A DNA stretch of 64,000 nucleotides. Source: Lophium mytilinum (Eukaryota; Ascomycota; Dothideomycetes; Mytilinidiales; Mytilinidiaceae). The position numbers and the translations under genes are program-made. Positions 26,108-29,639 of the stretch are shown in pieces (positions within the stretch are counted from its first letter, which is position 1; each line of letters begins with the position of its first letter). The notes under the pieces were generated by a model. That model was not told where the DNA came from, did not search any database, and was given only the letters and a program-made list of their open reading frames with translations. The stretch covers positions 3,068,215-3,132,214 of the forward strand of contig MU004181.1 of NCBI GenBank assembly GCA_010093605.1. The letters run 5' to 3'.

Positions 26108-27359
26108 GAGCATATTGACCCCTACGTCTTCATCACTCTTTTCACATTCGTTCATACAATGGCAACGAGACCTCACTTTACCATGAAGGCGTACTTGTTC
26201 ATTCTTTTACAAAGTTATTTGGTCCTTGTCTCAGCACAAACTGCTAGCGGAACAGGAACGGCTGTCATCACCAATGGAATACCAAGACCGCCGCCCATTT
26301 TACCTTTATATCCTATCCCTATAAATAGTACCGGAATACTGGGAGGAACCGGACCAGGAGTGACTCCAAGCACATCGCAACCCAAAACGACGTTTTCGTC
26401 GGGAACTGCTGCAGGCACGAGCTCATCAGCTTTAGTCGCAGTCCCGTTCTCATTAAGTTCAGCGTCAGTCACTACCTCTTCAGTGAACGGACCGTTAGAT
26501 ACTACATCCGCCCCGACCGAGAGCACGAACAGTTTTCCGATCTCGAGCTCTTCCATTTTATTATCTCCCGATTCAAGCGAAAGTGTGTCTTCTTCGTCGA
26601 GCTTGCAATCAACCATAGCAACTGAGCCTACGACCACACCTACTGCCACCGCGATTACGTCTTCGAGAACCGGATCAATTACCGCAGCTCCCTCAAGTAC
26701 GAACATTATTCTGCCATCTGGAATTATCCTCACACCAGCCACTGCCGTCCTTGGTACGACAGGCACTGAGATTAAGACCAGCGCTTCAGACCTCTCAAGC
26801 TTGATAATAGGCATATTCCCAATTATTCAACAATGGATCGATGACCCCGGACATCAGCCTCCTAAAGTCACGGCAGTAACGGACGGGCTCAACAATATAC
26901 TTCCTAGAGCATCCGAGTTCTTGAATAGGCTACCGAAACCCACCGATCCGATTGAACCATGTCAAAAAGGATCATCGAGGCGTTCACTTCAAAAGAGGTC
27001 ATTCCTTGACGGCTTGTTCAAATCGGTATTCAATCTAGTCACTTGTGTTGTTGACGACGGAAATAAGCTGAAAGACGGCATTACCGAGGGAGTTGAGGAC
27101 ACTGTGAAGACACTTACGAATGACTTAAGACCGATGATTGATGCTCTTAACAAAGTTGACCCTGGCGACGACTCCGACCCGTCTGCCTCAGTATCTAGTC
27201 AGCAGAGCTCTTCCCGGCAGTCTTCGTCCTCGTCGTCCTCCTCCTGCAGCTTGGAGACCGTAAGCAATTGTCAAATTGCTTGCACAGCAACAGCAATCAC
27301 GACAGTAGGCGGAGCTAATATAGGAGCGGATGGCGAAGCATGTAGAACAATCTGCAGAA

Positions 27360-27484
27360 TGTTGGACTGAAAAACCCCAAACAATATCGGATGAGACAAG
27401 CTGTTTGAGACAAACCCATCTGTAGCCTATATCAGAAGAATCAACCCCCTCCTAACGGAGGGTATGGGTTTCCGAATTTCAACA
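27360..27484 (+). repeat. Left terminal repeat of TRIM-like element 1
   Basis: 125 bp, TG...CA bounded, matches 27897-28021. Confidence 0.9.
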
Positions 27485-27896
27485 TGGTAGCTCAGATGGT
27501 TATTCACCAATTTGCCGGGGCCCATCCACCCTATCAGGGGGTGTAAAACATCTGCTCACCACCCACAGCTATTCACCACTTGCGCCTATCCACCACTCGC
27601 TATTGTACCGTGGCCGACCAGATGAATCCAAGCAGCTGTATCCGACACCTAGGGCAGATGAATCCGTTTCCCACGAGCCTGAGAGCCGTGATGAGAGCCT
27701 GTACCTGGAATCGTTTGAGAACCGTCTGCAGAGAGCCTGCCGGAGCGGATGGTGCGAAGGAAGGGAGGATACGGAGGACAAGGAAGAGAGAATGGGGCGG
27801 CATTTACTAGACAAGAAGGCTGTTTATTACGGAAGGAGGTCAGCATTTACCATCGAGAAGGGGGCCAAGAGTATCGTTTGTGGTTTTCTGGGGGAG

Positions 27897-28021
27897 TGTT
27901 GGACTGAAAAACCCCAAACAATATCGGATGAGACAAGCTGTTTGAGACAAACCCATCTGTAGCCTATATCAGAAGAATCAACCCCCTCCTAACGGAGGGT
28001 ATGGGTTTCCGAATTTCAACA
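27897..28021 (+). repeat. Right terminal repeat of TRIM-like element 1
   Basis: 125 bp, matches 27360-27484; followed by target copy CAGAA at 28022-28026. Confidence 0.9.
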
Positions 28022-29639
28022 CAGAACACCTATCACAGCGTGTAGTGCTACTGCGGTAACATCAGTGTTTACGTCTACTGTAACATCTACCTCTTCAGGA
28101 TTTCAGATATGCTCCCCCGGTTGCTCAGAATGTGCACATAATAAGGCGCCACCACAGCCCACGGGCATCAACCTCTCAGGCGTAATGACGGCGTCTAACG
28201 GTCACCTTTTCCTTCCCCCGGAGACCTCACTACCCGCGGATGAAACTCTCGCAGCCCGTGGTACGTATCCAAAAGAAACCAGCACCCCAGGCCAAGGACC
28301 TTCCAAGAGAGCACTCTTCAATCCCAAAGATGCGCTTTTCAGTAACGTGAAGGACTTCATTCTATTTCAACTCGTTATGGCAACTATTCTTGACCACGGC
28401 GAAACCGCCAGTGTCTGCTCGACTGCTATGACTTATACCTTAACAGACGTTCCGGATCTCTGGGCAGTGGTTAATCTTTACGGCTGCACATCCGTTATTG
28501 TGGTCTCCCGAAAGCGAATATGGATGTCGCACTTTTGGGAGGGCCCTTCCTTCCTACAGCCCAACAACTTCCGTCCGGAAGTTCTCGATGCAATGCGCAA
28601 CGGCGGTGCAGGCATCCAGCAAGGAATTGCCGCATTCACAGGCCCCGGTGGCGATTTCGAAAACACACCAGAGAACAAAGTCCGTGCCTTCATTGTCACG
28701 CCGTATCGGCGTGGTGAATTTAATCCGGCACACGATGATTGGCAATTTCCGTCTGAAATTGGAAAAATGAGAGATGTATTGCACGACATCTTAGGAAGGG
28801 AAGACGAATTGATGTACGTTCTACCCAAACTTACTACCTAGGTTAATGCTAATTCACCAAAAGCATTCCATATATTACCCGAGGGCGCGACCCGGGAGTC
28901 CCTGGTGCTCCTGGCTTTTACACCATGCCTTACGGTAAGGTCATAGTCCAATATGACCCTTTGCAAGCGCGTATGCAGGGGCCTGGGGGTGCCAGTTGCA
29001 AAGGGCCCAGCTCGAGGTACTGAGAGCCCTTCCCTACCAGTATTAGTGAAGCTACATATCGGATACTTATTGCACTTTACCTTTGTAGATATGGGTCGAA
29101 GATAACCCACAGTATCGATACCGGGATTACTGGCAAGCTTTGCCAAACCAGGTTGTGCCGCTACCACTTTCTCAGTCTGGCCAAATGAAGCGAGTGCTTC
29201 CATCACCTCCACTTACGGAGGTAGATGAGGATGACTGGGAAGAATTTCGTGAACCGCTCAAGCGGCAAGATGGTGGCTCTTGTCCTCTAGCCAATAGTGC
29301 TCTTTCCGCATCTAGTTCTGTCTCTGCCGCTGAAACAGCATCCAGCCAGGCCGTAGAGCCGACGACAGCACAGACCGGAGATCCTACGACACTACAAACC
29401 AAAGACCCGACAACACTCCAGACCGTCACTGTCTCGAACTCCATCTCAACAGCTCCTAGTCCGCCTTCACCAGCGACTGAGCCTCCACCAGCACTAGATC
29501 CGGCCCCCTCGCCTTCTTCACTGCCAGCATATTCTTGTAAACCGCCGTAAGTTGTACAAAGCTATACTAAAGGAAAATATATTAACAAACGCTAGCCTTG
29601 ACGAACCCTCCGCAACTCGGTGTTTATGTTACCCAGTGA

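Follow-up and report, generated by a model that had tools for sequence, protein, structure and literature searches.

The LTRs of TRIMs range in size from about 100 to 250 bp. Reports of fungal TRIMs cover rust fungi together with some Agaricomycetes (PMC10886601), the Boletales (PMC5689174) and Venturia (PMC4646964); Pseudocercospora has been screened for them (PMC13041039). Judging by the excerpts of these papers used here, the statement of an earlier, sequence-only reading of the present locus, that such elements are little described in fungi, was too strong. The helpers of TRIMs are usually not found; in the portion of the survey by Gao et al. (2016, PMC4717578) drawn on here, no related protein-coding element was found for 278 of 289 subfamilies.

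The locus described here lies in a window of 64,000 nt from contig MU004181.1 of Lophium mytilinum; by the window we mean this whole stretch of DNA, and element coordinates are counted from its position 1. The assembly that was searched comprises 43,183,309 bases (43.18 Mb) in 24 contigs, and all counts from genome searches are lower bounds. We conclude that the window almost certainly contains a TRIM that has cut into a fungal gene. The primer, the supply of proteins in trans and the recency of the insertion are parts of this reading that we infer.

Anatomy of the element and of the interrupted gene

The element is 662 bp long (27360..28021), limits that the sequence-only reading had placed exactly to the base; its parts are listed in Table 1. 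The two LTRs lie in direct orientation, show 0 differences over 125 bp, and have the ends TGTTGG...CAACA. A repeat-finding program stretches the repeat to 128 nt at 99%. Across the 64-kb window, 66 exact 60-mers recur within 5 kb, and because all 66 belong to the LTR pair, the pair is not a product of chance. Tandem duplication, which the sequence-only reading had named as a finding that would refute it, is excluded: the repeats are separated by 412 bp, and a single host 5-mer, CAGAA, is duplicated outside them. Direct sequence comparison thus upholds both the identical terminal repeats and the perfect target duplication. The total length falls below the limit of about 1,000 bp given for TRIMs (PMC4717578). 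The direct, identical LTRs are bounded by TG...CA, a PBS for a putative primer follows the 5' LTR and a PPT precedes the 3' LTR, and the element has both a TSD and multiple dispersed copies.

Table 1. Coordinates of the element, the interrupted gene, the unlike 5' LTRs of two siblings, and the TSDs of the family
Feature	Position or locus	Strand	Evidence
5' TSD copy, CAGAA	27355..27359	.	sequence
5' LTR, 125 bp, TG...CA	27360..27484	+	identical to 27897-28021
Putative primer-binding site TGGTAGCTCAG, adjoins 5' LTR	27485..27495	+	complementarity to putative tRNA 3' end
Internal region, 412 bp, no recognised protein	27485..27896	+	Pfam scan; 4 genomic copies
Polypurine tract GGGGGAG, adjoins 3' LTR	27890..27896	+	unchanged in 4/4 internal-bearing copies
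3' LTR, 125 bp	27897..28021	+	identical to 27360-27484
3' TSD copy, CAGAA	28022..28026	.	sequence
Exon 1, upstream part, Ser/Thr-rich	26159..27359	+	ORF; P0001 62.5% over 208 columns
Exon 1, downstream part, same phase	28022..28813	+	homology, frame; predicted 3' edge (GTACGT at 28814)
Predicted intron, 50 nt	28814-28863	+	
Exon 2, 3' edge approximate	28864..28999	+	tblastn P0002, P0003 from 28865 in another frame; translation
Exon 3, edges approximate	29089..29550	+	tblastn P0002, P0003, P0006 from 29089; ORF end
L016 foreign 5' LTR, 191 bp	L016:5983-6173	-	TSD + TGTTGGA search
L018 foreign 5' LTR, 185 bp	L018:4960-5144	+	TSD + TGTTGGA search
Perfect TSDs	window CAGAA; L017 CATAC; L019 GGTGT; L020 GAGAC; L023 ATCTC; L016 ATTTC; L018 GAAGT		
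Imperfect TSDs	L022, L025, L026 4/5 (L026 start uncertain); L028 3/5; L021 1/5		
Other places	L024 start ambiguous; L027, L029 without an end		

The Pfam scan covered two ORFs of the element and the two pieces of the host gene. No retrotransposon protein was recognised in the element: one of its ORFs has 0 families, and the other has two matches far below the cut-off. The lack of coding capacity claimed for the element therefore holds for these two ORFs, in the sense that they encode no protein recognised by Pfam. A structured non-coding RNA was also considered and rejected, since the element RNA is not more stable than any of its shuffles (20 of 20 equal or exceed it) and no Rfam family in the window reaches its gathering score.

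We further considered whether the element could be a Helenus-type TRIM, that is, one with a tRNA-like promoter in its LTR. As described in part of Kojima (2024, PMC10886601), the Helenus TRIMs of fungi resemble the window element in their fungal hosts, their 5-bp TSDs, their LTR-only remnants and, in some of them, a PBS for the iMet 3' end. They differ from it in the LTR, which in the window is free of tRNA-like sequence. A sensitive cmscan of the element (E<=10) returned three matches, none to a tRNA and all far below the gathering score; with ARAGORN, the window as a whole gave no tRNA. On these grounds tRNA-derived content of the element was rejected, and a Helenus-type element appears highly improbable.

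The PBS is complementary to the 3' end of the putative initiator tRNA-Met at C8:903090 in 8/8 and 10/11 positions and in only 12/18 overall; the complementary stretch is the last 8 nt of the tRNA, CCA included. When the 3' half of initiator tRNA-Met served as a search pattern, 7 matches were obtained, against 11 with the reversed control. The tRNA gene is therefore identified only as the best match to that pattern, with 1 mismatch; it is tRNA-like, and we take it to be a putative initiator tRNA-Met gene. The PBS region occurs in 4/4 internal-bearing copies of the family (reversed control, 1), and the PPT with its context is exact in 4/4 (reversed control, 1); at <=3 mismatches, neither has any further site in the genome. 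Over its 11 bases, the PBS of the sibling copy at locus L018 is the same as that of the window copy, and those of L016 and L017 differ from it by G>A and C>T. A looser pattern joining the LTR end to the PBS gave 51 matches; because the reversed control gives 34, these are mostly due to chance. Outside the known copies, this pattern occurs at C18:1096186-1096201 (0 mismatches) and C7:1510958-1510973 (1 mismatch), sites that could be diverged relatives or chance matches. By eye, the PBS region at 27485-27502 (TGGTAGCTCAGTTGG... in L018), also in L016 and L017, looks like a tRNA D-arm in the sense orientation. A possible pairing of the PBS with the LTR within the element was spotted by eye.

The gene at the insertion site was examined by comparison with six homologues, all of which (6/6) align to the downstream part. 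One of these, the 448-aa protein P0001 of a public assembly, gives an upstream alignment that extends to its residue 216 (62.5% identity over 208 columns) and a downstream alignment that starts at its residue 219 (40% over 232), leaving 2 residues between the pieces. Because the aligned pieces end at 216 and resume at 219, this homologue crosses the insertion site without an insert. The only other homologue aligning upstream, P0005, does so weakly (26-28%, low-complexity). Once 662+5 bp are removed, the open frames on the two sides are in the same phase, with 461 codons upstream and 272 downstream, as the sequence-only reading had stated. These frames are in themselves weak evidence, because 482 of 2000 random window positions also have at least 100 in-phase open codons on both sides. 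The uninterrupted frame of P0001 is thus the stronger proof of gene interruption, and together with the downstream tblastn matches it supports the insertion into an exon of a predicted gene. Among ten copies of the family examined for in-phase frames of at least 100 codons on both sides, only the window copy has them. Translation that enters the element terminates at a stop codon whose last base is LTR base 11.

Farther downstream, the matches continue in other frames, first from 28865 and then from 29089, a pattern consistent with two introns. No Pfam family was found in either of the two host-gene pieces. By eye only, the N-terminus of the host protein is signal-peptide-like. The genome search for a close paralogue of the downstream part found none; it gave 44% over 46 residues, with a stop.

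The family, its age and the search for a helper

The search for further copies of the 125-bp repeat, which had been proposed as a check, gave 17 places in the assembly with the LTR as sole query. The family as a whole occupies at least 15 places, of which 4 (the window, L016, L017 and L018) have the interior and 11 are LTR-only, 2 of the latter lacking an end. A perfect 5-bp TSD is found at 7 of the 15 places. The flanks have a GC content of 0.49-0.59 (4 kb on each side, 14 loci). The LTRs nearest to that of the window copy are those of the LTR-only copies L019 (98.4%) and L020 (97.6%). The interior of the window copy is 86.5% to 87.8% identical to the nearest other interior (87.8% without gaps). 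As this identity is at most about 88%, the source of the window copy is not among the copies found; that is, the assembly yielded no close source copy.

To the extent that it can be read from the LTRs, the age of the insertion is bounded rather broadly. With 0 differences in 125 bp, the 95% upper limit is 11.4 My at 1.05e-9 substitutions per site per year, the fungal rate given in PMC5689174, and 1.2 My at 1e-8 per site per year. Youth is thus compatible with the LTR identity, which supports it loosely. It is not proven, because identity over 125 bp bounds the age only at about 1-11 My, depending on the rate. The sequence-only reading was therefore consistent with the data in calling the insertion recent, and overstated in the firmness with which it did so.

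RIP-like change was assessed among the internal-bearing copies. Relative to L018, L017 has 41 C>T/G>A changes against 6 in reverse, and 23 of the 41 are in CpA/TpG; L017 thus carries RIP-like change. Between the window copy and L018 the changes balance, 22 against 23, and neither copy is conspicuous. In going from the window copy to L016, the counts are 28 against 17. These comparisons bear on the alternative that the insertion is old and yet retained, for example because it is spliced from the transcript or is borne by a dead gene. The absence of differences between the LTRs would still permit up to 11.4 My at the slower rate. However, the frames on both flanks are open, the later exons retain homology, and the window copy shows no RIP-like excess relative to L018. 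We consider an old insertion rather improbable.

By its structure, the element would have received its reverse transcriptase and integrase from some other element. The earlier claim that an active relative supplied them was overstated, for the proposed search of the genome for a full-length relative found no helper with a related LTR, PBS or PPT in the assembly. A plasmid search gave no match. RVT_1 was scored for 150 of 173 candidates, and the distances between RT matches and the 17 LTR places were compared by eye from their coordinates; among the matches listed, none lies within 20 kb of such a place, and the nearest is at about 25 kb, on contig C17. On contig C21 the RT matches are clustered, with 28 among the 150 RVT_1 matches listed, nearly all of them with stops.

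An element mobilised by Copia would be expected to have a 5-bp TSD and to share its PBS with a Copia element; the window element has a 5-bp TSD, and no site with its PBS region was found outside the family in the assembly. At locus L060 (C15:218400-226400) lies a Copia-type LTR retrotransposon whose RVT_2 match is uninterrupted. It is an LTR element in the same genome as the window TRIM, but it lacks the 125-bp LTR. Because it has no match to that LTR and the end motifs are absent, it was rejected as the direct helper. The two LTRs of L060 are 84.5% alike, and by eye the right one is apparently C>T/G>A mutated. The L060 leader starts GGTTATGAGC, which presumably resembles the anticodon arm of iMet rather than its 3' end.

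Siblings with unlike LTRs

Two of the four internal-bearing copies, L016 and L018, as assembled combine the interior and 3' LTR of the family with an unlike 5' LTR, joined at the PBS, and are flanked by perfect TSDs. In each, the 3' TSD is repeated upstream of the first family match, by 195 bp in L016 and 184 bp in L018, and is there followed by TGTTGGA. Once this upstream duplication was found, the interpretation of the two loci as 5'-truncated copies was dropped. The 12-mer of TSD plus TGTTGGA occurs once per 9.9-kb locus, where arithmetic gives an expectation of about 4e-5 per 700 bp, and on the element strand TGTTGGA occurs in each 9.9-kb locus at the two LTR starts only. The TSD 5-mer of L016 occurs once more, at -375, without TGTTGGA. 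In BLAST, similarity to the window element starts ahead of the PBS, by 2 nt in L016 and by 7 nt in L018. The 3' LTRs are 92-94% (L016) and 88% (L018) identical to the window LTR, the latter value rising to 95% if a 10-bp indel is not counted.

The foreign 5' LTRs are single-copy in the assembly. Their similarity to 10 family LTRs was assessed by counting how many of 300 single-base shuffles per pair reach the observed score, and the per-pair counts are uncorrected. For the L018 5' LTR, the count was 0/300 with 4 of the 10 family LTRs and 3/300 with 2, and no similarity was indicated for the other 4. With the L016 5' LTR, none of the 10 is clearly similar, the lowest count being 15/300. Two flank controls never fell below 13/300. 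The two left LTRs are weakly similar to each other, with a score of 49.5 against 47.5 for the highest of 300 shuffles.

Normal reverse transcription gives a new copy two identical LTRs (PMC1950507, in the part used here). As new copies carry identical LTRs, the combination of unlike LTRs with a matching TSD points to an event before integration. A mechanism that would produce this outcome is intermolecular plus-strand transfer. A different element with the same PBS would be co-packaged with the TRIM; its plus-strand strong-stop DNA would pair with the TRIM minus strand via the shared PBS, and this foreign DNA would then be copied in as the left LTR. A transfer of this kind should exchange the LTR on the left side, set the border at the PBS and leave the TSDs intact. 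All three are seen, and in both L016 and L018 the outer LTRs are unlike, the border lies at the PBS and the TSDs match. Read from the assembly alone, plus-strand transfer would be the best explanation of the two loci, and we give it an even chance of being correct. Because the donors are missing, with no further element bearing a 5' LTR of the L016 or L018 type found in this assembly, plus-strand transfer is what we infer.

Gene conversion between retroelement copies is an established process, and could have acted here after integration. The LTRs of L016 and L018 might have matched at insertion and been of another type, with the interior and 3' LTR replaced later from a family member. The left border of homology would equally sit at the LTR/PBS junction, and the distant likeness of the L018 5' LTR to some family LTRs would fit as well. 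On the other hand, the conversion tract would have had to stop precisely where the LTR ends on its 3' side, with the TSD of the locus kept, and to do so twice; moreover, neither type of LTR was found as a pair on any element of the assembly. We regard gene conversion as unlikely.

The left ends might instead be ordinary family 5' LTRs altered, once the element had inserted, by indels, by filler DNA or by a nested insertion that spared only the ends. Both still start with TGTTGGA, and by eye the end of the L016 left LTR resembles the family ...TTCCGTAT...CA end. This explanation is opposed by the lack of clear similarity of the L016 5' LTR to the family LTRs. Also, because the 3' LTRs of L016 and L018 stay window-like, a very fast local rewrite would be needed twice. 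Rewriting of this kind thus seems quite unlikely.

If plus-strand transfer is correct for these two loci, it may be more than an isolated accident. With 2 of the 4 internal-bearing copies hybrid, we tentatively suggest, at somewhat less than even confidence, that the family routinely gains foreign LTRs by plus-strand transfer, and that the left LTRs are fossils of lost helpers.

Significance and comparison with known systems

This work adds a well-delimited TRIM family, with its target sites and LTR-only remnants, from a fungal genome with RIP-like mutation, and the insertion in the window cuts a gene for which the assembly yielded no close paralogue. If the hybrid reading of L016 and L018 is true, these copies would record which LTRs shared packaging with the TRIM, and the foreign LTRs would serve as probes for the missing helper, a direct route to the helpers of TRIMs. 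The divergence between the LTRs of such copies could then not be used to date them. If the grafting of LTRs is routine, a TRIM could acquire a new helper or promoter through LTR replacement.

Compared with the TRIMs surveyed in PMC4717578, as far as the portion drawn on here describes them, the present family is alike in that the elements are mostly below 1,000 bp, have short LTRs, are non-coding and usually lack a recognised helper. It is unlike them in its few copies, its RIP-like mutation and the unlike LTRs of 2/4 internal-bearing copies. In the literature surveyed we met no report of TRIM copies with unlike LTRs; its coverage was narrow, and this is weak evidence of absence.

Chimeras are known from other LTR elements, and the excerpts of three papers allow a comparison of mechanisms. 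In the template-switch chimeras of the Triticeae (Sabot and Schulman 2007, PMC1950507), as in our reading of L016 and L018, RNAs are co-packaged, the chimeras arise before integration, and the TSDs are intact. In that model, however, the outer LTRs stay identical, whereas those of L016 and L018 are unlike and meet the family sequence at the PBS. Strand displacement assimilation, proposed for retroviruses, has plus-strand pieces annealing to the minus-strand DNA of the partner RNA (PMC3187697). It concerns short plus-strand pieces in avian retroviruses, whereas L016 and L018 would require strong-stop DNA carrying a whole LTR. Finally, the Onsen recombinants (PMC5668417) are likewise chimeras from co-packaged RNAs that form before integration. 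Within the LTR their switches mostly fall in R, and there are further switches in the coding part, whereas the border in L016 and L018 lies at the PBS.
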